Source: Actinacidiphila alni (lineage in GTDB: Bacteria > Actinomycetota > Actinomycetes > Streptomycetales > Streptomycetaceae). Taken from it: a stretch of 64,000 nucleotides of DNA. The translations under genes and the position numbers were made by a program. The DNA lies in the NCBI RefSeq assembly GCF_900112845.1, contig NZ_FONG01000006.1:124001-188000 (forward strand). Direction: 5' to 3'. The notes beneath the pieces were generated by a model. That model worked only from the letters and a program-made list of their open reading frames with translations, was not told where the DNA came from and ran no database searches. Positions 38,757 through 64,000 of the stretch are shown one piece after another; position 1 is the first letter of the stretch; the number at the start of each line of letters is the position of its first letter.

Positions 38757-38761
38757 CGACC

Positions 38762-39022
38762 ATGTCCGAGTACACCACCGCCCAGACCCAGATCCTCTCC
38801 TTCATCGAGGCCCGCTTCCCGCAGGCCAGCATCGAGACCGGCCAGGACATCTTCTCCCTCGGCTACATCAACTCGCTCTTCGCGATGGAGCTGGTGATGT
38901 TCATCGAGAAGACCTTCGGTCTCACCATCCCCAACGACGAGCTGCGCATCGACAACTTCCGCACCGTCGAGGCCATGGCGGACCTGGTGGCCCGCAGGAG
39001 CGTCCCCGTCTCCGTCGACTGA
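38762..39022 (+). CDS. Acyl carrier protein for hydroxymalonyl unit, FkbJ/ZmaD-like
   Basis: An 86-residue carrier protein. ATG 38762 is preferred over ATG 38753, which touches its own ribosome site. The phosphopantetheine Ser sits in LGYINSLFAMELVMFIE, the hallmark of carriers that hold glyceryl and hydroxy- or methoxymalonyl groups. It lies between the FkbK-like and FkbI-like genes with almost no gap. Its expected cargo is glyceryl-S-ACP loaded by the FkbH-like protein. Confidence 0.93.
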   Translation: MSEYTTAQTQILSFIEARFPQASIETGQDIFSLGYINSLFAMELVMFIEKTFGLTIPNDELRIDNFRTVEAMADLVARRSVPVSVD

Positions 39023-39032
39023 GGAGCCAGAC

Positions 39033-40199: not shown

Positions 40200-41302
40200 G
40201 CACACTGACGCAACCGCTGGCCACCGCGCCGGCCACGGATCCGGCGTCCGCGCCGGACCCGTACCGCAAGCCCAAGCAGGGCAAGATCAAGTGCGTGGTC
40301 TGGGACCTGGACAACACGCTGTGGGACGGGGTGCTGCTGGAGGACGGCGACGTCACGCTGCGCCCCGGGGTGGTGGAGCACATCCGCCGCCTGGACGGCC
40401 TCGGCATCCTGCACTCGATCGCGAGCAAGAACGACCACGACACGGCGGTCGCGAAGCTGCGCGACTTCGGCATCGAGGACCTGTTCCTGTACCCGCGGAT
40501 CGGCTGGAACGCCAAGTCGGAGTCGGTGAAGCAGATTTCGGCGAAGCTCAACCTGGGTCTCGACGCCTTCGCGTTCGTCGACGACCAGGACTTCGAGCTG
40601 GCCGAGATGGAGTTCTCGCTGCCCGAGGTCACCCGGGTCAACGCAGCTGACGTCGACACCGAGCTGCACAGGACCGAATTCCGGCCGCGGTTCGTCTCCG
40701 ACGAGTCGGCGCAGCGGCGCGGGATGTACCAGAGCCAGCTCGCCCGCGACGAGGTGGAGGGCGACTTCGTCGGCACCAACGAGGAATTCCTCGCCAGCCT
40801 GGGCATGACCTTCACCATCGCCCCGGCCGCCCGCGAGGACCTCCAGCGCGCCGAGGAACTCACCATCCGCACCAACCAGTTGAACGCCACAGGCCGCACC
40901 TACTCCTACGACGAGCTGGACGAGCTGCGCGAGTCCCCCGACCACCTGCTGCTGGTCGCCACGCTCACCGACCGGTTCGGGTCCTACGGCAAGATCGGTC
41001 TCGCGCTGGTGGAGACCGGGCAGCCGGACTGGCAGCTGCACATGATGCTGATGTCCTGCCGGGTGATGTCCCGCGGTGTCGGCTCCGTGCTGCTCAGCCA
41101 CATCATGGAGCGCGCCGCGGAGGCCGGCGCGGGCCTGCGGGCGGACTTCGTGGAGACCGGCCGCAATCGGATGATGCAGATCACCTACGCCTTCAGCGGT
41201 TTCCGCGAGGTGGCGCGCGAGGGCGACCGGCTGGTGCTGGCGGCCGACCTGGAGCAGATCCAGCCGCTGCCGGGCTATGTCGACGTCCGGGTGACGCGGT
41301 GA
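40196..41302 (+). CDS. FkbH-like glyceryl-ACP synthase (HAD superfamily)
   Basis: A 368-residue protein. GTG 40196 is chosen over GTG 40187 because GGGAG lies 8 bases upstream and it overlaps the preceding stop. The HAD motif VVWDLDNTLWDG supplies the phosphatase Asp pair, and the C-terminal half (RTNQLNATGRTY, RVMSRGVGSVLL) is the GNAT-like domain typical of FkbH. FkbH takes 1,3-bisphosphoglycerate, dephosphorylates it and loads D-glyceryl onto its ACP. With its three upstream partners it completes hydroxymalonyl-ACP synthesis. No O-methyltransferase (FkbG) lies in the window, so the unit is likely unmethylated. Confidence 0.94.
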   Translation: MSTLTQPLATAPATDPASAPDPYRKPKQGKIKCVVWDLDNTLWDGVLLEDGDVTLRPGVVEHIRRLDGLGILHSIASKNDHDTAVAKLRDFGIEDLFLYPRIGWNAKSESVKQISAKLNLGLDAFAFVDDQDFELAEMEFSLPEVTRVNAADVDTELHRTEFRPRFVSDESAQRRGMYQSQLARDEVEGDFVGTNEEFLASLGMTFTIAPAAREDLQRAEELTIRTNQLNATGRTYSYDELDELRESPDHLLLVATLTDRFGSYGKIGLALVETGQPDWQLHMMLMSCRVMSRGVGSVLLSHIMERAAEAGAGLRADFVETGRNRMMQITYAFSGFREVAREGDRLVLAADLEQIQPLPGYVDVRVTR

Positions 41303-42141
41303 CCACGGCGGTGCGGGCGGCGCCCAGCACGGCCTGGCTGCCGTTCGCGGAGCAGCCCGGCTGCGACGGTGTGCGGCTGTACTGCCTGCCGCACGCCGGG
41401 GGTTCGGCCTCGGCGTACCGCTCCTGGTTCGGGCGGCTCGGGCCGGTGTCGGTCCGCCCGGTCCAGCCGCCCGGCCGGGAGACCCGGCTGCGCGACACCC
41501 CGTACGACCGGATGGACCGGCTGGTGCCGGACCTGACGGACGCGGTGCTGGCCGACACCTCCCCCGACGGGGGGACGCGGCCGTACGCGGTGTACGGGCA
41601 CAGCCTGGGCGCGCTGGTCGGCTTCGAGCTGGTGCGGGAGATCCGGCGGCGCGGCGGTCCGATGCCGGTGCACCTGTTCGTGTCGGGGTGCGCGGCGCCC
41701 GACCTCCAGGAGGACGGTGAGCCGCCGGTCGCCGGGATGACGCAGGATCAGGTCGTGGCGCTGCTGCGGCGGATCGGCGGCACCCCGGAGTGGATGCTCA
41801 CCGACCCGACCGTGCTGCGGATGATCCTGCCGCCCTTCGTCGCGGACTTCTCCGTCCGTGATTCCTACTCCTACGAGCCGCTGCCGCCGCTGGACGTGCC
41901 GATCACGGCGCTGGCCGCGACCGACGACCCGCGGGCCGGCACCGCCGACGTGGCGGGCTGGCGGGACCAGACCACCGGGCGGTTCACCACGCACACGCTG
42001 ACCGGCGGGCACTTCGCGGTGCTGGAACAGGCCGCGGTCACCCACCGCTATGTCGACCGGGCGCTGCGCGGCGCGTTCGGCCCGCAGTTGCCGGGCCTGT
42101 CGGCAACGGACGCCAGGGAGGCACCAGTTGCTCACCACTGA
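41299..42141 (+). CDS. Type II thioesterase
   Basis: A 280-residue alpha/beta hydrolase starting at GTG 41299 in a GTGA overlap with the FkbH-like gene. It shows LYCLPHAGGSASAYRSW near residue 30, the nucleophile motif VYGHSLGALVGFELV, a C-terminal catalytic His in GGHFAVLEQ and a candidate Asp in ATDDPRAG. This is the discrete editing thioesterase family of PKS and NRPS clusters, which removes stalled or misprimed acyl groups from carriers. It is the only thioesterase in the window, so it could also take part in release; editing is the more usual role. Confidence 0.94.
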   Translation: MTTAVRAAPSTAWLPFAEQPGCDGVRLYCLPHAGGSASAYRSWFGRLGPVSVRPVQPPGRETRLRDTPYDRMDRLVPDLTDAVLADTSPDGGTRPYAVYGHSLGALVGFELVREIRRRGGPMPVHLFVSGCAAPDLQEDGEPPVAGMTQDQVVALLRRIGGTPEWMLTDPTVLRMILPPFVADFSVRDSYSYEPLPPLDVPITALAATDDPRAGTADVAGWRDQTTGRFTTHTLTGGHFAVLEQAAVTHRYVDRALRGAFGPQLPGLSATDAREAPVAHH

Positions 42142-43687
42142 CTGTGTGCGCCGCCCGGCGTACGAGGGGACGCGCCGGCCGCCGGGCGCGGCGGTCCCCG
42201 CGGGCCGCACCCTGACCGACTGGTTCCGGCACGGCCTGGCGCTGGACCGTTCGGCGCGGGCGCTGCGCGTCGGCGCCGAGTCCATGGACTACGGTCAGCT
42301 CGAAGAGCTGGCGCTGGCGCTCGCCGGGACGGTCGTCGCGGCGGTGCCCGGCGGCCGGCCCCGCCGGGTGGGCCTGCTGGCCTCCCGTACGGTGACCGCC
42401 TACGCGGGGCTGCTGGCCGCGCAGTTCGCGGGCGCGGCGGTGGTGCCGCTGCACCCCGGCTTCCCGGCCGACCGCACCGCCCGCATGATCGGCGCCGCGG
42501 GCCTCGACGCCCTGATCGCCGACGAGCGCGGCGCGGCCGTCCTGCCGGAACTGGCGTCCCTGGAGGGCGTGTTGGACGGCATCCCGGTGGTCACCGGGCC
42601 CGGCGGCCCGCCGCTGGAGCAGCCGCTGCCGACGCTGCCCGACGACATCGCCTACATCCTGTTCACGTCCGGTTCCACCGGTACGCCCAAGGGTGTGCCC
42701 GTCCTGCACCGCAATGTCGACGCCTATCTCCGTTTCGTGCACGACCGCTACGGATTCCACAGCGGGGACGTGTTCTCGCAGACCTTCGACCTCACCTTCG
42801 ACCTGGCGATGTTCGACCTGTTCACCGGCTGGGGCAGCGGCGGGACGGTGGTGAGCGTGCCGCCGACGGCGTACGCGTCGCTGGAGCGGTTCGTCGCCGA
42901 GCAGGGCATCACGGTGTGGTTCTCCGCGCCGAGCCTGGTGTCGCTGCTGCGCCGACGGCCCCGGGGGCTGCCCGCGGGCAGCATGCCGAGCCTGCGCTGG
43001 AGCCTGTTCTGCGGGGAGCCGCTGCTCGCGCACGACGCGGCGGACTGGCTCGCGGCGGCGCCGGGTTCCATGGTGGAGAATCTCTACGGCCCGACCGAGC
43101 TGACCATTTCGTGCAGCGTGCACCGCTGGGATCCGGCGACCTCACCGGACTCCTGCGTCAACGACGTGGTGTCGATCGGCGTCCTGCACCCGGGGATGCG
43201 CGCCCTGCTGCACGAGCAGGCGGCGGACGGCACCGGTGAACTCTGCGTCACCGGCGACCAGATGTTCCCCGGCTATCTCGACCCGGCCGACGACGAGGGC
43301 CGCTTCCTCGACCAGGACGGCGAACGCTGGTACCGCACCGGTGACTTGGTGCGCTATCTGCCGGGCGGCGAGCTGGCCTATCTGGGCCGGCGCGACCACC
43401 AGGTGAAGATCCACGGGGTGCGGGTGGAGCTGGCCGAGATCGAATGGGCGCTGCGCAAGGTCGACGGCGTCAAGGAGGCGGTGGCCGTCGCGGTGGACGG
43501 TGAACTGACCGCCTTCCTGCTCGGCGAGGAGCGGCCGCCCGCGGCGCTCGCCGAGGACCTGGCGGCGTTCCTGCCGCGCGCGCTGGTCCCGCGCCGCTTC
43601 GTGCGGGTCGAGGAATTCCCGCTCAACGCCAACCGCAAGGTGGACCGCAAGGCGCTCACCGCGCGGGCCGCGGCGGACGCCCGGTGA
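42128..43687 (+). CDS. Free-standing amino acid adenylation enzyme
   Basis: A 519-residue A domain. TTG 42128 is chosen because GGGAGG lies 6 bases upstream; its first codons overlap the thioesterase end. Core motifs: A3 FTSGSTGTPKGV, A4 FDLTFDLAMFDLF, A5 NLYGPTE, A7 YRTGDLV, A8 GRRDHQVKIHGVRVELAEIE and A10 NANRKVDRKAL with the catalytic Lys. No carrier is attached, so it must load a separate ACP. Its place after a ZmaG/D/E/FkbH-type cassette recalls zwittermicin ZmaJ, which activates serine for aminomalonyl-ACP. I could not derive a firm substrate code from the sequence, so serine is only a hypothesis. Confidence 0.9.
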   Translation: MLTTDCVRRPAYEGTRRPPGAAVPAGRTLTDWFRHGLALDRSARALRVGAESMDYGQLEELALALAGTVVAAVPGGRPRRVGLLASRTVTAYAGLLAAQFAGAAVVPLHPGFPADRTARMIGAAGLDALIADERGAAVLPELASLEGVLDGIPVVTGPGGPPLEQPLPTLPDDIAYILFTSGSTGTPKGVPVLHRNVDAYLRFVHDRYGFHSGDVFSQTFDLTFDLAMFDLFTGWGSGGTVVSVPPTAYASLERFVAEQGITVWFSAPSLVSLLRRRPRGLPAGSMPSLRWSLFCGEPLLAHDAADWLAAAPGSMVENLYGPTELTISCSVHRWDPATSPDSCVNDVVSIGVLHPGMRALLHEQAADGTGELCVTGDQMFPGYLDPADDEGRFLDQDGERWYRTGDLVRYLPGGELAYLGRRDHQVKIHGVRVELAEIEWALRKVDGVKEAVAVAVDGELTAFLLGEERPPAALAEDLAAFLPRALVPRRFVRVEEFPLNANRKVDRKALTARAAADAR

Positions 43688-46800: not shown

Positions 46801-47683
46801 TGACCGCGGAGCCCAGGATGACCGCGTGGATCACGTCGCCGTCGGCGAGTGCGTCGGTCATCCGGCGCAGCGCGACCACACCGACGCCCGCGCCCATCAC
46901 GGTGCCGTCGGCCGCCGCGTCGAAGCTGCGGACCGTGCCGTTCGGCGAGGTGATGCCGCCGGGCTCGTACCGGTATCCGGCCGGGTGCGGCAGCGGCAGG
47001 AAGGCGCCGCCGGCCAGCGCCAGGTCGCTTTCGAAGGTCAGCAGGCTCTGGCAGGCCAGATGCACCGCGACCAGCGACGTGGAGCAGAAGGTCTGCACGC
47101 TCAGGCTCGGCCCGCGCAGGCCGAGTTTGTACGCGACCAGGCTGGTCAGCGAGTCGCGTTCGTTGCCGACCGCGACGAGCAGGCCGCCGCCGGGTTCGTC
47201 CACGACGTGCGCGACATTGTCCAGCAGGTAGTCGGGGAAGGCCGAGCCGCCGAAGACGCCGACCTGTCCGGGCGGCCCGACCGGCGGATAGCCCGCGTTC
47301 TCCAGCGCCTCCCAGGCGCATTCCAGGAAGAGCCGGTGCTGCGGGCCCATCGTCTCGGCCTCGCGGGGCGAGAAGCCGAAGGCGGCGGCGTCGAAGTCGG
47401 CGAGGCCGTCGACCGGGCCGCCGACCCGTACGTAGTGGGGGTCGGCCGCGGCCTGCGGTGAGATGCCGGCCGCGGCCAGCTCCTCGTCGGTGATCTCGCG
47501 CAGACCGCTGACGCCCGCGAGGGTGTTGCGCCACAGCGTGGCCACGTCGGGGGCGCCGGGGAAGCGGCCGGACATGCCGACCAGGGCGACCGCGGAGTCG
47601 TACACGTCGTAACCGTCGTCGGGATCCGGGCCGTTGACGATGTCGGCGCCGGGGGTATCAGGGGTATCAGGTGTGCCGGGCAT
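43835..47683 (-). CDS. Type I PKS module lacking AT: KS-KR-ACP
   Basis: A 1282-residue protein from ATG 47683 behind GGAGCGATC. KS Cys200 lies in FCSTSL; the His motifs are variants, HATGT and KPAVGH, with both His kept. Between the KS end and the post-AT linker (PTYPFRRSRYW) only about 200 residues occur, against roughly 420 in a normal module. The GxSxG and HAFH regions are absent, so there is no acyltransferase. KR has TGGLGDVG, SSVSAVLGG and Tyr1093 (GPYSAAN). ACP Ser1244 lies in LGGHSL. It resembles modules 3-5 in style, is encoded opposite to them and has no docking coil or thioesterase. Its extender must arrive in trans. It may be the last module, but order is not fixed by gene order. 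Confidence 0.93.
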   Translation of the reverse strand: MPGTPDTPDTPGADIVNGPDPDDGYDVYDSAVALVGMSGRFPGAPDVATLWRNTLAGVSGLREITDEELAAAGISPQAAADPHYVRVGGPVDGLADFDAAAFGFSPREAETMGPQHRLFLECAWEALENAGYPPVGPPGQVGVFGGSAFPDYLLDNVAHVVDEPGGGLLVAVGNERDSLTSLVAYKLGLRGPSLSVQTFCSTSLVAVHLACQSLLTFESDLALAGGAFLPLPHPAGYRYEPGGITSPNGTVRSFDAAADGTVMGAGVGVVALRRMTDALADGDVIHAVILGSAVNNDGRERVGYTAPGVDGQAAVIRTALNVADVKPESVGYVECHATGTGLGDGIELAAMARVFQATPKTPIVLGSAKPAVGHLDRASGVTGLIRAALSVRDGVKLAIPGFERPNPALAAAADRFTVLPENQPWPEGTEPRRAGISSFGLGGTNAHVVIEQAPPRPARTTAAGPQLLAFSAGDRTALDDVTERLRAHLVAHPELDVADVAFTLQVSRGHFALRRFVVCDDLADAVAALADPARWVDGETTTRGPAVRLTEGDGLSPQWRTELADAAATLLPGAVESGGDRPIPVLERGLRAIGVRVKGAEDTDPGPYETVGLPPGPDGVPAAHWLIGTVGRLWLAGAEIDWAALHRGEGRRVELPTYPFRRSRYWVAPRPKARGEQPQVEGRVDDLAQWTYLPAWQQRPLPTGDLDERLRAAGPWLVLAAEDRGEALVRRLARAGAEVVTARPGTEFGQDDAGDFTVRVDSKEDLEELLAGQFVAPRTLVHGFSLASPEGDGTAHFTAEQDRGMHSALALVGALAADPQPAEAQLTLLTRGAATVAGADLRHPEHAALAALAPTIAQENPELSCRHLDLDPVEGAVSDAATDQTLAAIVHPHLGPAAVRADDLWTRTYQQHPLEETDPERPVFRAGETVLITGGLGDVGLALARHLAERYGCRLVLTSRSQLPPRERWSELSAGEDRVARHIRNVLDLEARGAEVIAIGADVGDESAMRAVVTAADERFGGIDVVVHAAGVQDQSWFKLAHLSDRDTCATHLHAKVAGFHTLQAVLGERATDRRITLSSVSAVLGGIALGPYSAANAALDAYTRRARLRGEGRWVTVDWDTWAIDAERLEAHHNPTVRAYEMAPEEGLTILERALAGADRFAHVVISSGPLAPRLAQWVTGDGTSAGQRAADDGERHPRPELLTPYAEPAEGTEAVLADIWGAVLGVEGVGANDDFFELGGHSLIAIQLSARVRAAFPGDLAATDLLEHPTVRRLARFIGS

Positions 47684-52376: not shown

Positions 52377-53720
52377 TCAGATCAGGACTTCGTGGGGTGC
52401 CGGGTGGCCGAGGAAGCCGACCGGACTGGCCGTCAGGCCGTAGGCGCCCGCCTGGAACACCGCGACGAGGTCGCCGATCTCCGCGTGGGGCAGTGACACG
52501 TCCTTGCCGAGCAGGTCGAGCGGGGTGCACAGGCAGCCGACCACGTCCACCGTCTCGGTGGCCGGCCCGGTGGCAGAACCGGCCACCGCGATCGGGTAGT
52601 TGCGCCGGATGGCCCGGCCGAGGTTGCCGGTGGCGGCGAGCTGGTGCTGGAGGCCGCCGTCCACGACGAGGAAGGTGGTGCCGCGCGAGACCTTGCGGTC
52701 CACGACGCGGGTCAGATAGACGCCGGCCTCGCCGACGAGGTAGCGGCCCAGTTCGATGACGGGCCGGACCTGCGGGAAGGCCGGGCGGATGGCGGTGTCG
52801 AGGAGCTTGCCGAGGTTCTCGCCGATCGGGCCGAGGTCCAGGGCCCGGTCGCGGGCGGCGTAGGGGATGCCGAAGCCGCCGCCGAGGTTGAGGTAGCGGA
52901 CGGGTGCGGGCGCGTGGTCCGCCAGGCCGGTGACCAGGTCGACGGTGGCGCGCTGGGCGGCGCAGATGCTCTCCGCGTCGAGATTCTGCGAGCCGGCGAA
53001 GACGTGGAAGCCGTGGAAGTCCAGGCCGGCCGCGCCGATCGCGGCCAGCAGCTGCGGTGCCTGCTCGGCGTCCACCCCGAACTGCTGCGGCCCGCCGCTC
53101 ATCTTCATACCGGAACCACGTACGGCGAAGGGCGGGTTGACGCGCAGCGCGACGCGGGCGGTGATGCCGAGCTGTTCACCGGCCAGGCGGACCCTGGCCA
53201 GTTCGGTGGCCGACTCCAGCTCGATCAGGACACCGGCGGCGACGGCCTGCCGGATCTCGATGGAGGTCTTGCCGGGCCCCGCGAAGCCGATCCGTTCGGC
53301 GGGGACGGTGGTGTCGAGCGCGCTGAGCATCTCACCGGCCGACGCGACGTCGAGTCCGTCGACGAGGCCGCTCATGTGGTGCAGCAGCGCGGGCATCGGA
53401 TTGGCCTTGACGGCGTAGTTCAGCTCCACGCCGTCGGGCAGCGCCGACCGCAGCTCGGCGACCCGGCGGCTGATCAGCCCCCGGTCGTAGGCGAAGAAGG
53501 GGGTGGAGCCGACGCGTTCGGCCAGCCGCGCGACGGGCACGCCGCCGACCGCCAACTCGCCGTCCACGACGGCGAACCGGCCGTGCCGGCCGAAGCCGCC
53601 GAAGGCGTCCGGGTCGGCCGCGGGGTGTACGGGGGCGGCGGCTTCCTCTACGTGTGCCGCCGGTACATGTGCCGGTACGTCCGCCGCCGGGGTGGCCGTC
53701 CCGGTGCCCGCGCCGCTCAT
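52377..53720 (-). CDS. PLP-dependent decarboxylase (fold type III, DAP/Orn decarboxylase family)
   Basis: A 447-residue protein starting in an ATGA overlap with the ligase gene. The PLP Lys105 lies in NYAVKANP. GGGFGIPY forms the phosphate loop, and Cys398 lies in GCLCTPLDLLGKD. QAGAYG near the end is typical of the family. The first 40 residues are an Ala/Pro/His-rich extension. These enzymes decarboxylate D- or L-amino acids such as diaminopimelate, ornithine or arginine. With its partner ligase and ACP it resembles the trio annotated as exosortase-A-associated. In vicenistatin-type pathways a related enzyme (VinO) decarboxylates an aminoacyl-ACP, so it may make an amino-bearing acyl-ACP here. 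The substrate is unknown. Confidence 0.88.
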   Translation of the reverse strand: MSGAGTGTATPAADVPAHVPAAHVEEAAAPVHPAADPDAFGGFGRHGRFAVVDGELAVGGVPVARLAERVGSTPFFAYDRGLISRRVAELRSALPDGVELNYAVKANPMPALLHHMSGLVDGLDVASAGEMLSALDTTVPAERIGFAGPGKTSIEIRQAVAAGVLIELESATELARVRLAGEQLGITARVALRVNPPFAVRGSGMKMSGGPQQFGVDAEQAPQLLAAIGAAGLDFHGFHVFAGSQNLDAESICAAQRATVDLVTGLADHAPAPVRYLNLGGGFGIPYAARDRALDLGPIGENLGKLLDTAIRPAFPQVRPVIELGRYLVGEAGVYLTRVVDRKVSRGTTFLVVDGGLQHQLAATGNLGRAIRRNYPIAVAGSATGPATETVDVVGCLCTPLDLLGKDVSLPHAEIGDLVAVFQAGAYGLTASPVGFLGHPAPHEVLI

Positions 53721-55315
53721 CGGGTGCCCTCCACGGTCTTGCGCAGCTCGACCCGGTCGAATTTGCCGTTGACCGAGCGGGGCAGCACGTCCAGGACGAC
53801 GGTGCGGCGCGGCAGCATGTACGGCGGCAGCTCGCGGGCGAGCACCTGGTGCAGCCGCGCGGTGTCGCAGGCCCCGGCGACGACCAGCACGACGTGCTGG
53901 CCGAGCCGTTCGTCGCCAACGCCGAGCGCGACCGCCTCGGTGGCCAGGCCGCTGGCATACACGGCCTCCTCAATCTCGGTGGGGCTGATCCGGTAGCCGG
54001 AGGACTTGATCATGTCGTCGGTGCGGCCGACGAAATACAGGAAGCCCTCCTCGTCGCGGTAGACGGTGTCGCCGGACCAGACCGCCAACTCCGTTCCGCC
54101 GTACGGGACGGCGCCGGGGACCGGGCGGAAGCGTTCGGCGGTGCGCTCGGCGTCGTTCCAGTAGCCGAGGGCCACCAGCGCGCCGCGGTGCACCAACTCG
54201 CCGTGCTCGCCCGGCTCGCAGGGCGTGCCGTCGGGGCGGAGCACCATGATCTCGGCGTTGGGGATGGCCTTGCCGATGGAGTCGGGGCGGCGGTCGGCCT
54301 CGTCCGGGTCCAGGTAGGTGGAGCGGAATGCCTCGGTCAGCCCGTACATCAGATACGGCCGGGCCTGCGGGAAGATCTCGCGCAGCCGCCCCAGGGTGGC
54401 GCGCGGCATCCGGCCGCCGGTGTTGGCGAAGTACCGCAGCCGCTCGGTGGCGTCCTGCGGCCACTGCTGGGCGGTCAGTTGCAGCCACAGCGGCGGTACG
54501 CAGGTCAGCGCGGTCACACCGTGCCGGGCACACAGCCGTACGACCTCGCGCGGCAGCAGGTAGTTGGTGAGCACCAGGTGGGCGCCGGTGATCAGGGTGG
54601 TGGTGAGCTGGCTGAAGCCGGCGTCGAAGCTGAACGGCAGCGCGGCCAGTACGACGTCGTCCTCGGTGTGCCCGAGGTAGGAGGCGACGCTCTCGGCGCC
54701 GGAGAGCAGATTGCGGTGCGAGAGGACGACGCCCTTGGGGCCGCCGGTGCTGCCCGAGGTGTAGAAGACGGCGGCCACATCGGTGTCGACGACGGCGTCC
54801 GCGCCGGGCACCGGGAGCGGTCCTTCGGCGCGCAGCCGCTCCCACGGCACCGCGGTCCAGCGGTCGTCGGCGGGCAGTACGGTGCCGGTGTCGCCGATCA
54901 GCACCAGGTGGCGGACGGTGGTGTCCGGCGGCAGCGCCGCGCGGACCGTCTCAAGACGCTCGGCGGTGGTGATCAGCGCGGTCACGTCGCAGTCGGTGGT
55001 GATACCGGCCAGGTGGCGGCCCTTGAAGAGCGGGTTGACGGGGACGAAGACGGCGCCGGCCGCGGAGGCGGCCAGCATCGACACGACGGTCTCGACGCGC
55101 TTCTCCGCGTAGACGGCGACCCGGTCGCCGCGCCGCACGCCCAACGCGTGCAGGCCGTACGCCACTTCGGCGACCTGCCGGGCGAGTTCGCCGTAGCTGA
55201 CGGTGCGGTCCTTGAACGTCAGGGCGGGGCGGCGGGCCGCGCCGCGCGCGATCAGCCGGTCAAGTCGGGTCAGCGGCGCGGCGGCCTGCCGCGCGGCCAT
55301 CGTCGGCTCGGTCAT
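53717..55315 (-). CDS. Acyl-CoA/acyl-ACP ligase (AMP-forming)
   Basis: A 532-residue adenylate-forming enzyme with FYTSGSTGGPKGV, MYGLTEAFRSTYL, GRTDDMIKSSGYRISPTEIEE and the catalytic Lys in SVNGKFDR. The family activates a carboxylate with ATP and loads it on CoA or a carrier. It lies 7 bases after the ACP gene and overlaps the decarboxylase, so ACP, ligase and decarboxylase likely work on one substrate: activate, load, decarboxylate. It resembles the ligase annotated with exosortase-A loci, although no PEP-CTERM gene is present here. Confidence 0.9.
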   Translation of the reverse strand: MTEPTMAARQAAAPLTRLDRLIARGAARRPALTFKDRTVSYGELARQVAEVAYGLHALGVRRGDRVAVYAEKRVETVVSMLAASAAGAVFVPVNPLFKGRHLAGITTDCDVTALITTAERLETVRAALPPDTTVRHLVLIGDTGTVLPADDRWTAVPWERLRAEGPLPVPGADAVVDTDVAAVFYTSGSTGGPKGVVLSHRNLLSGAESVASYLGHTEDDVVLAALPFSFDAGFSQLTTTLITGAHLVLTNYLLPREVVRLCARHGVTALTCVPPLWLQLTAQQWPQDATERLRYFANTGGRMPRATLGRLREIFPQARPYLMYGLTEAFRSTYLDPDEADRRPDSIGKAIPNAEIMVLRPDGTPCEPGEHGELVHRGALVALGYWNDAERTAERFRPVPGAVPYGGTELAVWSGDTVYRDEEGFLYFVGRTDDMIKSSGYRISPTEIEEAVYASGLATEAVALGVGDERLGQHVVLVVAGACDTARLHQVLARELPPYMLPRRTVVLDVLPRSVNGKFDRVELRKTVEGTR

Positions 55316-55322
55316 CGCCGGC

Positions 55323-55622
55323 TCACTTCTCGCCGTCGGACTCGGCGGCCGCGGCGTCCGGCTCGACGAATTCGGCGACGGTCGCCCACAGCGAGCCGAC
55401 CGTCGCGAACGTCTCCTCGGTCAGCAGCTCGTCGTCCAGCTCGACCCCGAAGTGGTCCTCCAGGTCCGCGAGAAGCTGGACGACGCCCATCGAGTCCAGT
55501 CCCAGCGCGGCCAGATCCGCGTCCGGCGACAGTTCGTCGCCCTCGGCGTACGGCAGTCGGGGCAGCAGTACGTCCTGAAAGGTGCGCGGAATCTTCCGCA
55601 TCTCCCGCGTCGTCTCGGCCAT
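55323..55622 (-). CDS. Acyl carrier protein (ligase/decarboxylase partner)
   Basis: A 99-residue carrier from ATG 55622. The phosphopantetheine Ser is in LGLDSMGVVQLL, followed by the acidic helix DLEDHFGVELDDELL. The C-terminus is an acidic Ala/Glu tail. It is the first gene of a tight minus-strand group with the ligase and decarboxylase, and should carry their acyl or aminoacyl intermediate. Confidence 0.93.
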   Translation of the reverse strand: MAETTREMRKIPRTFQDVLLPRLPYAEGDELSPDADLAALGLDSMGVVQLLADLEDHFGVELDDELLTEETFATVGSLWATVAEFVEPDAAAAESDGEK

Positions 55623-57390: not shown

Positions 57391-59226
57391 TCACCGTTCC
57401 CCGGAGGGGGTGAGGGTGCGGGCGAGGCCCGACAAGGGGCGGGGGCCGGAGAGGTCGGTGAGGTCAAGACCTTGCCAGCCACGGGAGCGGAGGACGGAGA
57501 GGACGCGCGGCCCGCGCAGGAGACGGCCACCGGCGGCGACGTAGGAGACGTCGGAATCGACGGAGGCGAGGCCATTGACCTCGGCGACGACGGCGGCGAG
57601 GTCGGCCGCCCCCGGCGGCACCGTACCGCCGGGAGAACCGCACTCCGGGGGAAGGCCGACAAATTCGTCGGGGCAGCGCGCCCCCGGCGCACCGGGAACC
57701 GCGTCCAGGCAGTGCAGCCGCAACTCCCCCTCGGACAGCGCCCCGTGCGCCTCGACGGTGGCGAGCAGCCGCCCGCCGGCGACGGACACGACGGCGGACC
57801 GTACGGCAGGATGCGCCCGCACCACCCGTTCCGTGGCGTCGAGATCGACGGTGTCGGGCCCGAGCCGGGCGAGGCGGAGCGCGGCGGGCGGGGCGAAGCC
57901 GAAGAGGCCGGCGGCCTCGCCGAGGCGCAGGTCGGCACCGGGCTCGCGGTGCGCTTCGAGCAGCCGCGCGTACCCGCGCAGGACGCGCTCGACGCCGTCC
58001 GCGTCCATGAGAGCGGCCGTGGCGTTGAAGGCGACGGTGACGCCGTCGTCCCACTCCCCGACCCGGAGGTAGGTGTCGGTGCCCGACCGCGCCCAGGCCG
58101 TCGGCTCGGGTATCCGCAGGAAACGTTCCTTCCGCGTCCCGCAGCTCGTCCCGCCGTGGCTGAGGAAGTTGACCTCGGAGGAGGCCCGCAGCGGTGTGCC
58201 GCGCCGGAAGCCGTCGCGCGCGACGATCTCCATGACCTCGTCGTACGGCGCGTACGCGTGCTCCTGCGCGGTGTCGACGGCGCGCGCGACCCGCGCGACC
58301 ACCTCGGCGAAACCGGGGTCGCCGCCGAGGTCCACCGAGACGAGCACCGGCGAGAACATGCAGGTCATGACCGACATGCGGGGCCCGTCCTCGCGGTGGC
58401 TGGTGAGCCAGCGGAAGGTGACCGCGGGCTCCCCCGCGTACGTCGCCATGGCCACCGCGTACGCGGCCAGGTGCACCACCGAGGGCCACACCCGCAGCCA
58501 CCCGGCGATCTCGCGGACCGCGCCGAGCAGCGTCGGCGAGGTGAGTGTGGCGCCGTACGCGGCCGGTCCTTCGGGCGGGGCGGGCGTACGGCGCCGCGCG
58601 AAGGTGTCGGCGGGCAGCGCGGGCACGGTGTCCTGCCAGTACCGCAGGACCGCCGTGCGTTCCGGTGTCGGCAGCGCCTCGGCCGCCGCGAGATCGGCGG
58701 GCTGGTACGCGACCGCCGGCAGCTCGACACGGCGGCGTTCGGCGAGCGCGCCGAGCAGCGCCTCGAAGTCCCGCTGGAAGAGCTGGATGCTCCAGTCGTC
58801 GAAGGCCAGGTGGTTGAGGACCAGCGCGAGCCTGCGCGGCACGCCGCCGGTGGTGACCGCGCACGCCCTGATCGGCCACTCCCGCGCCAAGTCGAACTCG
58901 GTCACCGACATCTCGCTCACCACGGCCGCCGGCGCGGGCGTGCCGTCCTGCTCGGTGCTCGCCACCCGCAGCGGCAGCGGCCGGGGCGGTTCGACCCGCT
59001 GGCGCGGGCCGGGCGCCGCGTCCGCGTCGAAGACCGTGCGCAGCCCCTCGTGCCTGCGCACGAGATAGCCGAGCGCGGACTTCAGCCCGGCCAGCGAAAG
59101 CCCGTCCGGCAGTGGGGTGTTGACGACGATGTGCGCGTCGTAGCGGGTGCCCGCCGGCACCTGCTGGTAGCGCAGCCAGTGGTACCGCTGGCCCCAGCAG
59201 AGGTCCGCGCTTCTCACCTCGGGCAT
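57391..59226 (-). CDS. Condensation-domain protein with decayed A-subdomain and carrier tail
   Basis: A 611-residue protein from ATG 59226 behind AGGAGGGCGGG. Residues 1-450 form an NRPS condensation domain: LCWGQRYHWLRYQ, RRHEGLRTVF, and catalytic NHLAFDDW (His139, Asp143). The C-terminal 160 residues look like an adenylation C-subdomain (DATERVVRAHPAVRSAVVSV) followed by a carrier-like region (GGRLLRGPRVLSVLRSRGW). The carrier consensus GGHSL is GGRLL, so the phosphopantetheine Ser is gone. The condensation domain may work in trans on ACP-bound substrates while the tail has become structural. It is divergent from the Lys-rich peptide operon. Confidence 0.85.
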   Translation of the reverse strand: MPEVRSADLCWGQRYHWLRYQQVPAGTRYDAHIVVNTPLPDGLSLAGLKSALGYLVRRHEGLRTVFDADAAPGPRQRVEPPRPLPLRVASTEQDGTPAPAAVVSEMSVTEFDLAREWPIRACAVTTGGVPRRLALVLNHLAFDDWSIQLFQRDFEALLGALAERRRVELPAVAYQPADLAAAEALPTPERTAVLRYWQDTVPALPADTFARRRTPAPPEGPAAYGATLTSPTLLGAVREIAGWLRVWPSVVHLAAYAVAMATYAGEPAVTFRWLTSHREDGPRMSVMTCMFSPVLVSVDLGGDPGFAEVVARVARAVDTAQEHAYAPYDEVMEIVARDGFRRGTPLRASSEVNFLSHGGTSCGTRKERFLRIPEPTAWARSGTDTYLRVGEWDDGVTVAFNATAALMDADGVERVLRGYARLLEAHREPGADLRLGEAAGLFGFAPPAALRLARLGPDTVDLDATERVVRAHPAVRSAVVSVAGGRLLATVEAHGALSEGELRLHCLDAVPGAPGARCPDEFVGLPPECGSPGGTVPPGAADLAAVVAEVNGLASVDSDVSYVAAGGRLLRGPRVLSVLRSRGWQGLDLTDLSGPRPLSGLARTLTPSGER

Positions 59227-59475
59227 CCCGCCCTCCTCTGATTCCGCGTGGGTTCGACTTCCCAGGATCCGGCTCCCGGCGGAATAACGGCAGCGTTTCG
59301 CGGTGGCCGATTGTGGACGGCAAAAAGCTGCCACCGGGATTCAACCGCCCACCGCCGGGCGAGGGTTGACGGGGCAGCGGCCGTCCGGGAATCTCGGTGA
59401 TGTCGGAGAAACCTGGTCCGGCATCCGGGATCCCACCCGGGGCCCGGAATTCCTTTCACGGAAGGTGTGATTTCT
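59227..59475. promoter_or_regulatory. Divergent promoter region before the Lys-rich peptide
   Basis: The region between the minus-strand condensation gene and the plus-strand peptide. TTGACG at 59366-59371, a 17-base spacer and GAATCT at 59389-59394 form a plausible sigma70-type promoter about 80 bp before the peptide start. GGAAGG at 59460-59465 is its ribosome site. Confidence 0.4.
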
Positions 59476-59676
59476 TTGTCGTCCAAGATCGCTGTGAAGG
59501 CCGCCGTCAAGGCCGCGTCCAAGGCTGCCTCGAAGGCCGCCTCCAAGGCCGCGAGCAAGGCGGCCGTGAAGGAGTCCTCGAAGGCGGCGAGCAAGGCCGC
59601 GTCGAAGGCTGCTTCCAAGGCCGCGTCCAAGGCCGCGAGCAAGGCGGCCGTGAAGGCCGCGTCGAAGGCCGCCTGA
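59476..59676 (+). CDS. Lys/Ala/Ser tetrapeptide-repeat polycationic peptide
   Basis: A 66-residue product from TTG 59476, 10 bases after GGAAGG; a GTG at 59467 is in frame but only one base from that site. After SSKIAV it consists of four-residue units: KAAV, KAAS x4, KAAV, KESS, KAAS x5, KAAV, KAAS, KAA. It has 16 Lys, one acidic residue, no Cys and no aromatic residue. Ser is written TCC, TCG and AGC, and Ala GCC, GCG and GCT, in mixed order, so the protein pattern rather than a recent DNA expansion is conserved. It should form a long cationic helix. It heads the operon ACP, acyl-CoA dehydrogenases, GNATs. It could be an acyl-acceptor or precursor peptide, a membrane-active peptide or a histone-H1-like DNA binder; none is proven. 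Confidence 0.75.
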   Translation: MSSKIAVKAAVKAASKAASKAASKAASKAAVKESSKAASKAASKAASKAASKAASKAAVKAASKAA

Positions 59677-59720
59677 CCTCGGACTCAGTACCGTCCGAGC
59701 GTACGGCCGGCTGATCCGTC

Positions 59721-59769
59721 GCCGGCAAGGCGCCGCGACCGCCCGCGAGGCGGCCGGCGCCCTGCCGGC
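59721..59769 (+). terminator. Stem-loop between peptide gene and ACP gene (possible attenuator)
   Basis: A 14-bp arm (59721-59734) pairs with 59756-59769 with one mismatch across a 21-base loop, 45 bp after the peptide stop. Placed inside an apparent operon, it could reduce read-through or protect the upstream message, leaving the peptide in excess over downstream enzymes. Confidence 0.4.
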
Positions 59770-59851
59770 GGACCCGCCGGGCCCCGCACGGGACCCGGAC
59801 ACCGGCACCGCCGTTCGGAACCGCCCGCCCAGTAATAAAAGGGGAAGCCCG

Positions 59852-60118
59852 GTGGAACACGCCGAGATCATCGATCACCTTCAGCATTCCCTCTCCGTGA
59901 TCCTGGACCGCCCGCTCCCCGAATTCAGCGCGGACACCAGGATTCTCGAAGACCTGGAGATCGACTCCATGCGATTCGTCGAACTCCTCATGAGCCTCGA
60001 GGACACCATCGGCCTCGAAGTCGACCCGGAATCCCTCGAACCCGAGGTTTTCCAGTCGGCGGGCTCCTTTGCCGACTACATCAAAATCCGGCTCGACCTC
60101 TCCCGGGTCGCCGGATAG
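59852..60118 (+). CDS. Acyl carrier protein
   Basis: An 88-residue carrier from GTG 59852 behind GGGGAAG. The phosphopantetheine Ser is in LEIDSMRFVELL, preceded by TRILEDL, then the acidic helix MSLEDTIGLEVDPESL. It is one of three discrete ACPs in the window and sits directly before two acyl-CoA-dehydrogenase-type genes, so it probably carries the substrate of those enzymes, as ZmaH does for ZmaI in zwittermicin assembly (inference). Confidence 0.92.
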   Translation: MEHAEIIDHLQHSLSVILDRPLPEFSADTRILEDLEIDSMRFVELLMSLEDTIGLEVDPESLEPEVFQSAGSFADYIKIRLDLSRVAG

Positions 60119-60157: not shown

Positions 60158-60766
60158 ATGAGGGACACGCTCATGGCGTGCGAAGCGGCGGCCCACGACG
60201 GCGGGTTCACGCCCGGCCTGGAGCTGGCGCTGCGCACGGTGGACACCGCCGTTCCTCCGGGACGCGTCACCGCCCTTCCGGCGGACCGGGTGCCCGCGGG
60301 CGCCGTCGTCGTGCCGCACCGCCTCGCCGCGCTGGAAGGCGTGGCCTTCGTGACCTCCGCGCCCGCCGGGCCGGAACCCGCCCACGCCCAGGGGGACCAC
60401 CGCACCGTGTTCGCCGCGCTGCTCGGCGCGGTACGGGTGGGTGTGTCCCGCAGGCTGCTCGACGACGCCGTCGCCCATCTGTCGGGCCGGGCGGCCGGCG
60501 GCGAGCCCCTGATCCGCAAACAACTCGTGCTCGGCACCGTCGCCGATGTCATCACCGCGCTCGACGCCGTACGCCAACTCCTGTGCGTCGCCCACCGCGT
60601 GCCCCGAGCGGTGACCGACGCGCACGACCGGATCACCGCGCTCGACTGGGACACCGCCAAGCTCTTCGGGGCCTCCGGCTTCCTCGCCGACGGCCCGGTG
60701 CGCGGTGCGTATGTCGGCCGGCTCGCGGCGGACTGCTGGACCGACCGGGAGGACGTACAGCCATGA
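60158..60766 (+). CDS. Truncated acyl-CoA dehydrogenase-like protein (C-terminal helical part)
   Basis: A 202-residue product from ATG 60158 behind GGAGG. Residues about 80-200 (RTVFAALLGAVRVGVSRRLL, IRKQLVLGTVADVITALDAV) resemble the C-terminal four-helix domain of acyl-CoA dehydrogenases. The N-terminal helical and beta domains, and with them most FAD and substrate contacts, are missing: half the usual 380 residues. The stop overlaps the start of a full-length dehydrogenase (ATGA), so the two may form a heteromer. The assignment is by pattern and moderately sure. Confidence 0.65.
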   Translation: MRDTLMACEAAAHDGGFTPGLELALRTVDTAVPPGRVTALPADRVPAGAVVVPHRLAALEGVAFVTSAPAGPEPAHAQGDHRTVFAALLGAVRVGVSRRLLDDAVAHLSGRAAGGEPLIRKQLVLGTVADVITALDAVRQLLCVAHRVPRAVTDAHDRITALDWDTAKLFGASGFLADGPVRGAYVGRLAADCWTDREDVQP

Positions 60767-61899
60767 TCCCCCTCGACACTCCGCTGCGGGAGCTGCGCGA
60801 GCAGTGCCGGGAGGCGGGCGCGGAACTGCGCGCGCACGCCCTGGCCGTCGACGCCGACCCGGCGGGCACCGCCCACCTCGACCTGCCGATCCTCGCGCTG
60901 GTCAGGTCCGCCTCCACGCCCAAGGATTTCCGCACCGACTCCGCCGTGGACGACGGCGGTTACTCCGACAGCTGCCTGTCCCGGGTGGTCGCGGGCGTCG
61001 AACTCGCCCGCGGCGACGCGGGGGTGCTGTGCGCCAACACCGGCCCCTCGCTGGCCGGGGTCGCCGTCGACACCCTGGGCAGCCCTGAGCAGCGCGAGCT
61101 GTTCTACGAGACCATCGCCGACGGCCGCGCCTGGACGTTCTTCGGCATGACGGAGCCGGCGCACGGCAGCGACGCGACCGCCATGGAGAGCAGGCTCGAC
61201 GCGGCGGGCGACCCCGCCGACGGTTATCTGCTGTCCGGCACCAAGCGCTATGTGGGCAACGCCTCCCGCGGCGCTATCGGCGTGGTATTCGCCCGCACCG
61301 GCCGCACCCCGCTGTCCATCCGCGGCGCCCTGATCCGGCAGCCGGCGCCCGGTTTCCACGGCGAACCGCTGGACATGATCGGGCTGCGCGGCGCCCGGAT
61401 CTGCCGGCTCGCGATGGACGAGGTGCCGGTGCCGCGCGAGATGCTGCTCGGTGCCCATCTGCCCGCCTCCCGGCGGGGGTTGTGGGGCATCAGCCGCACC
61501 TTCAACGCGATGCGGCTGCAGATCGCCGCGCTGGCGCTGGGCACCGCGCTCGGCACCCGTGACTACGTGGTCGAGCAGCGGCCCAACTGGTCGGGCCACG
61601 AGGTGATGTCGGCCCGGCTCGACGCGGCGACCGCGCTGCTGTACGAGTCCGCAGCGGCCGTGGACCTGCAACCCGACGCGGTGCGGCCGCCGTCGACGGC
61701 CAAGCTGCACATCACCGACCTCGCGGTACGCACCAGCCGGTGGGCGGCGCGGGCGCTGGGGCCCGGCGCGCTGCTGGAGCACCCGCTGCTGGAGAAGTGG
61801 AGCCGGGACGTGCTCGCCTTCGAGTTCATGGACGGCACCAGCAACATCCAGCGGCTGCACATCACCCATGACCTGTCCTCGCGGAAGGTGCGGACATGA
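60763..61899 (+). CDS. Acyl-CoA dehydrogenase
   Basis: A 378-residue flavoprotein starting in an ATGA overlap. It has FFGMTEPAHGSDATAMESRL (family signature), YLLSGTKRYVGNASRG, and FMDGTSNIQRLHITHD near the C-terminus. At the catalytic-base position, where the family has Glu (YEGTS), it has Asp (MDGTS), a conservative change that could alter activity. With the preceding ACP and the half-length partner it probably oxidises or desaturates an ACP-bound acyl group. A role analogous to ZmaI (aminomalonyl-ACP formation) is possible. Confidence 0.92.
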   Translation: MIPLDTPLRELREQCREAGAELRAHALAVDADPAGTAHLDLPILALVRSASTPKDFRTDSAVDDGGYSDSCLSRVVAGVELARGDAGVLCANTGPSLAGVAVDTLGSPEQRELFYETIADGRAWTFFGMTEPAHGSDATAMESRLDAAGDPADGYLLSGTKRYVGNASRGAIGVVFARTGRTPLSIRGALIRQPAPGFHGEPLDMIGLRGARICRLAMDEVPVPREMLLGAHLPASRRGLWGISRTFNAMRLQIAALALGTALGTRDYVVEQRPNWSGHEVMSARLDAATALLYESAAAVDLQPDAVRPPSTAKLHITDLAVRTSRWAARALGPGALLEHPLLEKWSRDVLAFEFMDGTSNIQRLHITHDLSSRKVRT

Positions 61900-62498
61900 C
61901 CACGACCACGGACATGACCGCCGCCGGCACGGGAACCGGCCTCGCGACCGGCCCCGACACATACGCCGCCGCCGATCCCTCGACGGACCTGAGCGGCGCC
62001 GCCCCGGAAGGCACCGGCTTCCGCTGGTCCGCGCGCCCGGTCACCGCGGCCGACCACGCCGCCGTACTGGACCTCTTCACCGAACCCGACTTCTACTTCC
62101 GCACCCACCGCCCCGACACCCGCCCGCAGTGGGAGGTCCTCTCGCTGCTCGACGAGGACACCCGGCTGCTGAGCGCGGACGGCCGGCCGGTGGGCCTGTA
62201 CGCCCTGGAGGTCAGCGGCGGTGAGCACGCCTGCCACTTCTTCCTGCACCTGCGGCTGACCGCCCGCCTGCGCCCGGACGCCTGGGCGTCGGCGTACCGC
62301 GAGCTGATCAGGGCGCTGCGCTGGCAGCGCGAGGTGGTCCGACTGGCCGTCGTCGTCGGCGAGTTCGACGACCGAGGGCTGACCGCCGCCCGGCTGGCCG
62401 GCTTCGCCGAGGAAGGCGTCCTGGCCGGGAACATCGTCCACGACGGGCACCGCCGCGGTTCCGTCTTCCTCTCCCGGATCTGGGAGCCCACGTCATGA
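61896..62498 (+). CDS. GNAT-like acyltransferase 1
   Basis: A 200-residue protein in an ATGA overlap with the dehydrogenase. The first 40 residues are a Thr/Gly/Ala-rich extension. The rest follows a GNAT layout: FRWSARPVTAADHAAVLDLF, HFFLHLRLTARLRPDAWASA and the helix YRELIRALRWQREV. The cofactor loop RxxGxG is not conserved (RPDAWA), so binding may be altered. GNATs move acyl groups from CoA or ACP to amines. It is the first of four adjacent GNAT-type genes. Confidence 0.7.
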   Translation: MTTTTDMTAAGTGTGLATGPDTYAAADPSTDLSGAAPEGTGFRWSARPVTAADHAAVLDLFTEPDFYFRTHRPDTRPQWEVLSLLDEDTRLLSADGRPVGLYALEVSGGEHACHFFLHLRLTARLRPDAWASAYRELIRALRWQREVVRLAVVVGEFDDRGLTAARLAGFAEEGVLAGNIVHDGHRRGSVFLSRIWEPTS

Positions 62499-62995
62499 TG
62501 CTGCGCGGATACCGGGACTCCGACCTGCCGCTGCTCAGCGGCGACTGGCTGCCGGGCGAGCTGCTCGGTCTGCCCGTGCCGGGCCGGCCCCCGCTGGCCG
62601 AACCCGCCCGGGTGCCCGCACCCCGCGATCCGGCGGAGGACGGGGCCACCGGCGAGGACGACGAACTGTGCGTCGTCCCGGGCGCCGGCTTCGTCCGGCT
62701 GGCCGCCGTGGACTGGGTGCACCGCAGGGCGCGCCTGGAGATCGGGCTGCGGCCCGGCGCGGAGGGCGGCGCCGAGCCGCTGCTGAAGGCCGCGCTCGAC
62801 CACGCCTTCCGGGCGCTGAATCTGCGCCGCGTCTTCGGCTGGGTGACACCGGCCGTACCACTGCCGTCCGGGCTGCCGCGCGACGCGCTGCTGCGCGACG
62901 CGGGCCTGGCCCCGGAGGCCGACGTCCCGCGGGCGCTGTGGCTCGACGGCCGCCCGGTGGCCCGACAGATCTGGGGAGCGACCCGCCATGGCTGA
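62495..62995 (+). CDS. GNAT-like acyltransferase 2
   Basis: A 166-residue protein overlapping the previous stop by four bases; ATG 62495 and ATG 62498 are both possible. It shows LRGYRDSDLPLLSG at the start, ARLEIGLRPGAEGGAEPLLK as the cofactor loop region and the helix DHAFRALNLRRVFGWV, a typical RimJ/RimL-like GNAT arrangement. A long Pro/Ala insertion (residues 28-55) replaces part of the usual acceptor region. Confidence 0.75.
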   Translation: MMLRGYRDSDLPLLSGDWLPGELLGLPVPGRPPLAEPARVPAPRDPAEDGATGEDDELCVVPGAGFVRLAAVDWVHRRARLEIGLRPGAEGGAEPLLKAALDHAFRALNLRRVFGWVTPAVPLPSGLPRDALLRDAGLAPEADVPRALWLDGRPVARQIWGATRHG

Positions 62996-63425
62996 CCTGA
63001 GCCTGCTCGGCACCGCCGAGGCCGCCGCGCGGCTGAGCGCCGCGCCGCAGACCGCCCGCGGCTTCCTCGGCCTCGACCCGGTCACCCAGAACGCCGCGCT
63101 GCTCGCGCGCGAGCTGACCCGTACCGGGGCGCAGGTGCTCAGCGCCGACGGCGTGCTGCTCGGCTACGCGCCCAACTCCGTTCAGCCGCGCCAGGGTTGG
63201 GTCGCCACCACGTCCGCGGATCCGGCGCCGCTGGCCGCGCTGCTTGACTTCCTGCGCACCTATCGCCGCTGCACCTCCTACGTCGCGGAGGTCCCCGAGG
63301 GCGCGCCCGCGGTGGCCGCGCTTGAGGCGTGCGGTTTCACCGGCGCGGGCCGGCTGCCCGGTCATGTCTTCCACTCCGGCGGCTACCACGACGTGCTGGT
63401 CTACAGCGCCACCCAGGAGGGCTGA
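62988..63425 (+). CDS. GNAT-like acyltransferase 3
   Basis: A 145-residue protein overlapping the previous gene by 8 bases. The C-terminal half (VAALEACGFTGAGRLPGHVF, SGGYHDVLVYSA) is the standard GNAT ending, in which a helix plus GF turn precedes the last strands. The N-terminal cofactor loop is not evident (TSADPAPLAALLDFL). It may be catalytically reduced or work with its neighbours as a heteromer. Confidence 0.7.
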   Translation: MADLSLLGTAEAAARLSAAPQTARGFLGLDPVTQNAALLARELTRTGAQVLSADGVLLGYAPNSVQPRQGWVATTSADPAPLAALLDFLRTYRRCTSYVAEVPEGAPAVAALEACGFTGAGRLPGHVFHSGGYHDVLVYSATQEG

Positions 63426-63428
63426 GCC

Positions 63429-64000
63429 ATGCCGTTCGTGACCGTCCGGCACTTCACCGAGGACGACATCCCCACCCGTACCGCCCTGTTGCGCGAGTCG
63501 CGCTTCCAGGCGAATCTCACCGACTTCGCGGTCGTCAGCGCCGACGACGCCCTGACCGCCAACCAGCGCCGCACCATCGAGCGGGAGCACGCGGTCAAGC
63601 GGATGTTCACCCTGTGCGGCAGCGGCGGCGGCACCGTCGGCTTCGCCTGGATCACCTCGATCGACTGGCCGGGCCAGACGTGCGAGCTGTCCTTCGGCGT
63701 GCTGCCCGAGTGCCGCGGCCGGTACGGCGCCGCCGCCGTCGCCGCCGCCCACGCCCACATCCGCGCGGAGTTGAACATGCGGGTGGTCGTCAACCAGGTC
63801 CTGGAGCACAACACGATGCTCGTTCCGGCCGAACTCCTCAGTGAGCAGCGGCGGGTCCGCTGCGCGTACGACTCCTACACCGTCGGCGAGTGGCGCACCG
63901 CGTGCTACTGGACCGAGAGCGAGCAGGACGTCGCCCGGCAGCGCGAGCAGGCCGCGCAGCGGCGCCGCGCGATCGCCGACCGTATCCGCACCGCGTCCGC
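63429..64000 (+). CDS. GNAT-like acyltransferase 4 (partial, runs off right edge)
   Basis: ATG 63429 lies 3 bases after the previous stop and the frame is open to the edge (190 codons). It opens with VTVRHFTEDDIPTRTALLRE. SFGVLPECRGRYGAAAVAAA carries the RGRYGAA acetyl-CoA loop, and the next helix ends NMRVVVNQVLEHN, so this is the best-conserved GNAT core of the four. The C-terminus is Arg/Gln-rich. The operon evidently continues beyond the window. Confidence 0.8.
   Translation, partial: MPFVTVRHFTEDDIPTRTALLRESRFQANLTDFAVVSADDALTANQRRTIEREHAVKRMFTLCGSGGGTVGFAWITSIDWPGQTCELSFGVLPECRGRYGAAAVAAAHAHIRAELNMRVVVNQVLEHNTMLVPAELLSEQRRVRCAYDSYTVGEWRTACYWTESEQDVARQREQAAQRRRAIADRIRTAS

Follow-up and report, generated by a model that had tools for sequence, protein, structure and literature searches.

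In the 64,000-nucleotide stretch of the Actinacidiphila alni genome analysed here (contig NZ_FONG01000006.1, positions 124,001 to 188,000; hereafter the window, in whose numbering all positions are given), a short gene encodes a peptide that carries a lysine at every fourth residue. It is followed by genes for a discrete acyl carrier protein (ACP), two acyl-CoA-dehydrogenase-like proteins and four acyltransferases of the GNAT family (GCN5-related N-acetyltransferases; GNAT1 to GNAT4). Such peptides occur at seven loci in two genera, namely the window itself, four further loci of the same genus (G016, G023, G011 and G022) and two of another genus (G049 and G060), and at all seven the peptide is accompanied by the ACP, the pair of dehydrogenase-like genes, all four GNATs, a DltA/VinM-like adenylation enzyme and a tricorn protease.

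The peptide family and its distribution

The original prediction, made from the letters of the window, had described the gene correctly: its coordinates, reading frame, 16 lysines in 66 residues and spacing of exactly four all hold, as does the ribosome-binding site proposed for it (Table 1), and the sequence (MSSKIAVKAAVKAASK...KAASKAA) does use a mixture of serine codons (TCG five times, TCC six and AGC three). A GTG at 59467 was rejected as the start, the ATG or TTG of the orthologues being aligned with the TTG at 59476. The candidate promoter fared less well, as no sigma-70-like match was found for the gene, although this says little in an actinomycete. The peptide has no Pfam or NCBIfam match; a PADLOC match to a nicking endonuclease (E 7e-5) was dismissed as low-complexity, and a scan of the whole contig for the peptide returned nothing but a proline-rich protein that contains a KAAS-like stretch but is unrelated.

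The seven peptides are 49 to 97 amino acids long and hold 12 to 24 lysines each. Every one of their 119 lysines keeps register 4, and an alanine stands two residues after 118 of the 119 lysines (register 2), with register 1 varying among A, V, S, I, E and T, and register 3 among S, V, A, T and D. Arginine does not occur in any of the seven, despite the high GC content of the genomes; the lysines are strictly single, without pairs of lysine and without proline, and no folded domain is found in the peptide. At the DNA level, 112 repeat units comprise 60 distinct sequences, yet these encode 18 tetrapeptides, and the 12-base units of one gene differ from each other at third positions and in the variable residues, never in the lysine codon. 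This variety of DNA sequences around few tetrapeptides and a fixed lysine register indicates that selection acts on the protein, which bears out the constraint that had been read from synonymous codons in the one gene. Since all lysines stay in register and none is replaced by arginine, whilst the neighbouring residues change freely, the data point to selection on the amine and not on charge alone. Judged from these sequences, the peptide gene is conserved, far beyond chance.

Searching the genus with the half-length dehydrogenase brought out the cluster in the genome under study, G016, G023, G011 and G022, all five with GNATs and all five encoding the peptide, together with a GNAT-less relative of the cluster in G008, G028 and G005. 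A GNAT1 profile search of 390 genomes of the family found matches solely in seven, i.e., the same five plus G049 and G060, in both of which the peptide gene is flanked by the condensation-domain gene on one side and the ACP gene on the other. Looking for the peptide beside GNAT genes in related genomes, as had been proposed, thus gave it at seven of the seven loci that have GNAT1. It was not found in the three relatives that have the ACP and the two dehydrogenases and lack GNAT1-4; their whole genomes gave zero matches to GNAT1 and zero to a four-unit KAA repeat. The stand-alone peptide tracks the GNATs, not the ACP.

The repeat itself was also searched for. A DNA pattern of four KAAx units matched eight of 395 genomes of the family, five of them at the peptide cluster; the remaining three matches are, by inspection, the N-terminus of an ABC transporter, a peptidase linker and the lysine-rich tail of a DksA-like protein, and the additional matches in a sample of the order all belong to larger proteins, as linkers or tails. 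Being strict, this pattern misses the divergent peptides of G049 and G060, so that its absence is weak evidence and the GNAT-based search is the better one. GNAT1 in a sample of the class and GNAT4 in a sample of the phylum each matched the genome under study only, a plasmid search gave zero matches, and a literature search did not find a matching peptide/acyltransferase system.

The peptide gene is separated from the ACP gene by a hairpin, and a comparable one lies at its 3′ side at all seven loci (-40 to -51 kcal/mol; at every locus lower than in any of 12 shuffles); a U-tailed terminator was sought and not found. Such a hairpin would fit an abundant precursor, needed in excess and separated from its enzymes. 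It also qualifies the earlier claim that the peptide heads an operon: the gene order agrees with this, but a hairpin of that strength before the ACP gene means that the two need not be co-transcribed at an equal level.

Table 1. Positions of the peptide gene, its companions and related genes (PKS, polyketide synthase; PLP, pyridoxal phosphate; PCP, peptidyl carrier protein; CoA, coenzyme A)
Feature	Position	Strand	Remarks
Stand-alone amino-acid adenylation enzyme, DltA/VinM-like	42050..43687	+	Homologue at the other cassette loci, 64-89% identity
LysA-like PLP decarboxylase	52377..53720	-	TIGR03099 above cut-off
Second AMP-forming ligase	53717..55315	-	TIGR03098 above cut-off
Second discrete carrier protein	55323..55622	-	
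Stand-alone condensation-domain protein, encoded next to the peptide gene and divergently	57391..59232	-	In five type I PKS-type loci
Shine-Dalgarno-like GGAAGG	59460..59465	+	10 nt 5′ of the TTG; position kept in G016 and G023
Lys-every-fourth-residue repeat peptide, 66 aa, 16 Lys	59476..59676	+	TTG start; orthologues in six other loci
Strong GC-rich hairpin, peptide stop to ACP start	59709..59778	+	About -49 kcal/mol
Discrete ACP	59852..60118	+	PF00550 PP-binding; DS motif conserved
Half-length acyl-CoA-dehydrogenase-like protein	60158..60766	+	C-terminal domain only
Full-length acyl-CoA-dehydrogenase-like enzyme	60763..61899	+	NCBIfam matches include prolyl-PCP dehydrogenases RedW/PigA
GNAT1	61896..62498	+	Predicted GNAT fold; canonical CoA P-loop absent at usual place
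GNAT2	62495..62995	+	Weak match to GNAT/spermidine acetyltransferase models
GNAT3, degenerate GNAT-like	62988..63425	+	Below-threshold similarity to phosphinothricin acetyltransferase and GNAT1
GNAT4, most conserved of the four	63429..64000	+	Ends at 64019, 19 bases beyond the window; Pfam 6e-7

Enzymes encoded with the peptide

GNAT1 has a predicted GNAT fold (mean predicted local distance difference test, pLDDT, 73; Foldseek E 4e-9), with spermidine acetyltransferases as top matches and SbzI among the others. Spermidine acetyltransferases act on primary amines of polycations. The canonical CoA P-loop, Q/R-x-x-G-x-G/A, is at its usual place in none of the four GNATs of the cassette, the GNAT4 orthologues having a near-P-loop form (R-G-x-F/Y-G), and profile comparison between the GNAT sets gave weak similarity. 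For the adenylation enzyme, the top chains among solved structures are 8k4r and 6akd, which we take to be VinM and IdnL7. The ACP is acidic. The full-length dehydrogenase carries the motif M-D/E-G-T, with Asp in the proteins of the window, G023 and G060; the D/E presumably stands where acyl-CoA dehydrogenases have their catalytic Glu.

The operon continues beyond the end of the window, where GNAT4 is followed by the gene of the tricorn-type protease and by an open frame resembling, by inspection, a phosphopantetheinyl transferase. The protease (S41) has its catalytic residues S745, H746, S965, D966 and E1023 intact, and the catalytic motifs are conserved in those orthologues that were read over their whole length. 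The same genome holds a second tricorn-like gene with two in-frame TGA codons (L085; G000:C37:46974-50348), and a third tricorn-like copy on C16.

Possible roles of the peptide

The reading that we favour, with a probability of about 0.47, is that the peptide is a leaderless, sacrificial acceptor with many lysines, whose side chains would be acylated by the ACP-fed GNATs before the tricorn protease cuts it. Helical or extended, the Ala-rich peptide would display its 12-24 identical side-chain amines; the stand-alone adenylation enzyme would charge the discrete ACP with an acyl or aminoacyl group, which the dehydrogenase pair may then desaturate whilst it is held there, and the GNAT set would take it off the ACP and attach it to the lysine epsilon-amines. 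As the alpha-amines are locked in peptide bonds, the epsilon-amine alone could react. In a last step the protease would cut the loaded peptide to short pieces, yielding epsilon-acyl-lysine units for the final product. The original prediction had made the peptide an acyl acceptor or scaffold for the polyketide; its acceptor part gains from the company of the peptide with the ACP/dehydrogenase/GNAT cassette at all seven loci and from its lack where GNATs are missing, but the link to a polyketide is loosened by G011 and G022, which have a ketosynthase/chain-length factor (KS/CLF) pair and, within 60 kb, no modular PKS that could be recognised. The acceptor reading also draws on the constancy of the cassette in differing PKS surroundings, on the nearness of the GNAT1 and GNAT4 models to polyamine acetyltransferases, on the match of GNAT1 to SbzI, on the missing CoA P-loops, on the intact catalytic residues of the protease and on the hairpin behind the peptide gene.

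Several observations weigh against the sacrificial acceptor, and the acidic S1 pocket of the protease is the main one, as neutral acyl-lysine suits it poorly. In the six sequences legible there the S1 residue is Glu, where the Thermoplasma enzyme has Asp936, a residue with a role in the preference for basic P1 residues. Cutting after free lysine would thus be favoured over cutting after acyl-lysine in neutral form, except where an amine is part of the acyl group or some of the lysines stay free. Furthermore, the model of GNAT4, although nearest to the same family of spermidine acetyltransferases, is of low confidence (pLDDT 61), inert linkers elsewhere can also be repeat-rich in Lys and Ala, and the seven loci amount to about three lineages; their counts are therefore not independent, and we put no probability on the association.

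How far is this from what is known? Genetically encoded sacrificial carriers for the building of small molecules exist in the PEARL scaffold peptides (3-thiaglutamate and ammosamide type) and in the amino-group carrier protein LysW. These build on the C-terminus of one peptide, whereas the cassette would use many internal side-chain amines, and no PEARL or LysW gene is among the annotated genes. The trio of stand-alone adenylation enzyme, discrete carrier protein and amine-acting GNAT is the same as in the SbzL/SbzG/SbzI system (altemicidin/SB-203208), where SbzI, the GNAT matched by the GNAT1 model, takes the acyl group from the carrier protein charged by the adenylation enzyme (PMC6331615); that system acylates a small molecule, whereas here the acceptor would be a ribosomal peptide. 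In selidamides and nostolysamides, which also have a ribosomal peptide beside GNAT genes, the known acyl acceptor is the side-chain amine of Lys or Orn (PMC13060382). Their precursors, however, have a leader (NHLP or Nif11), often lanthionine enzymes, and one or a few acceptors, with one tandem GNAT in the case of nostolysamide, as opposed to four single GNATs, a discrete ACP, dehydrogenases and as many identical candidate acceptors as there are lysines. As a leader of either type and a core were sought in the peptides and not found, the repeat beginning at residue 3 or 4, we do not claim membership in a known class of ribosomally synthesised and post-translationally modified peptides. Goadvionins and lipolanthines likewise tie a ribosomal peptide and a GNAT to acyl-chain biosynthesis in one cluster; in them a class III lanthipeptide is acylated at its N-terminus (PMC13060382), and there is no lanthionine synthetase among the genes annotated here.

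The GNAT lipidation of Lys/Orn side chains in selidamides and nostolysamides (PMC13060382) is also an argument for an acylated peptide that is itself the end product, i.e., an exported, membrane-active poly-acyl-lysine (lipo)peptide with the tricorn protease serving turnover or immunity, and ABC and MATE exporters are found in the clusters. Yet the peptide has no leader, core or signal, a repeat number of 12 to 24 is easier to reconcile with a scaffold than with a defined product, and all seven clusters encode the protease, which makes this an unlikely alternative. Nor do we think it likely that the peptide works as a cationic scaffold, binding non-covalently, on which the cluster's enzymes and acidic carrier proteins gather. 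Its strong positive periodicity, the acidity of the ACP and the constant nearness of carrier-protein enzymes would all suit such a function, but charge alone would permit the replacement of Lys by Arg, and 119 Lys stand against 0 Arg; moreover, the three clusters with ACP and dehydrogenases but without GNATs do without the peptide.

The original prediction had named a cationic nucleoid or membrane-active protein as its main alternative. Actinobacterial DNA-binding proteins commonly have Lys/Ala-rich tails, and one outside match (L055) is such a Lys-rich tail, so that a histone-tail-like nucleoid-associated or regulatory protein, in the cluster by coincidence, could be imagined. This we hold to be very improbable: those outside matches that were inspected form linkers or tails within larger proteins, homologues in the sampled genomes do not lie mainly outside clusters as DNA-binding proteins, and the stand-alone form occurs there only with the cassette. 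In addition, the single-lysine spacing without Lys pairs or Pro and the lack of a folded domain speak against it, and so does the retention of the peptide in two different cluster architectures. A chance or decaying repeat without function, which a low-complexity 12-base repeat in GC-rich DNA might bring to mind, is hardly credible, and conservation contradicts it: the gene is kept at all seven loci in the two genera, most of its variation is synonymous, the starts align and ribosome sites lie upstream.

Returning to the sacrificial acceptor, it may point to a wider and new biosynthetic principle, which we advance with rather more hesitation than the reading itself. A leaderless ribosomal ‘lysine comb’ could act as a solid-phase-like carrier on which GNATs fed by the carrier protein build many copies of a lysine-derived unit at once, to be released by a dedicated tricorn protease, in a mode shared by type I and type II polyketide clusters. 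If so, ribosomal-peptide scaffolding would extend from single-site to multi-site chemistry, the cell would have a simple route to acylating the epsilon-amine of lysine only, and the comb of acceptor amines would be easy to engineer. Even with another mechanism, the strict periodicity of this peptide family makes it a marker of one particular acyltransferase cassette, by which clusters of this kind can be located.

The two kinds of surrounding cluster

The cassette lies in two different settings. The loci of the window, G016, G023, G049 and G060 are of the type I PKS kind and share genes for a ketosynthase-ketoreductase-ACP (KS-KR-ACP) protein, a ligase, a decarboxylase, a regulator and the condensation-domain protein, with further modular PKS genes at the window's locus and G023. 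G011 and G022 have instead the KS/CLF pair (type II), together with a KAS III-like protein, an ATP-grasp enzyme resembling PGM1/BtrJ, a reductase resembling FabV and a MATE exporter; a modular PKS could not be recognised within 60 kb of them. The LysA-like decarboxylase is present at all seven loci, in forms that diverge between the two cluster types. Since the cassette is constant whilst its PKS surroundings differ, the source of the acyl group would differ as the cassette stays; and as no modular PKS was recognised within that distance of G011 and G022, the shared chemistry would be that of the ACP, adenylation enzyme, dehydrogenase and GNAT unit.

The cluster in the window also resembles the starter systems of beta-amino-acid macrolactams, such as that of vicenistatin (VinN/L/O/M), in its AMP ligase, discrete carrier protein, PLP decarboxylase and VinM-like adenylation enzyme (PMC11284099). 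It differs in that the described vicenistatin pathway does not use a repeat peptide or GNATs, and in that no thioesterase domain was found on the modular PKS proteins.

A few other genes of these clusters deserve mention. In 52377-55622 (- strand) two exosortase-A-associated families, TIGR03098 (AMP ligase) and TIGR03099 (decarboxylase), stand with a carrier protein within the polyketide cluster. At 37905-41302 (+ strand) a 3-hydroxyacyl-CoA dehydrogenase, an acyl-CoA dehydrogenase and an FkbH-domain protein are encoded consecutively, which is the usual set for a hydroxy- or methoxymalonyl-ACP extender unit. The KS-KR-ACP protein kept at the five type I loci (43835-47683, - strand) has no acyltransferase domain in the Pfam table and is encoded on the opposite strand, away from the main PKS genes. 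The clusters without GNATs and peptide (L020, L021 and L022) encode a KAS III-like protein, an ATP-grasp enzyme, a LysA-like decarboxylase, an ACP and two dehydrogenases, as well as an ornithine-cyclodeaminase-like gene (by Pfam, in L020) and, by inspection, carbamoyltransferase-like genes; in L021 there is, again by inspection, a large protein resembling a non-ribosomal peptide synthetase on the opposite strand.
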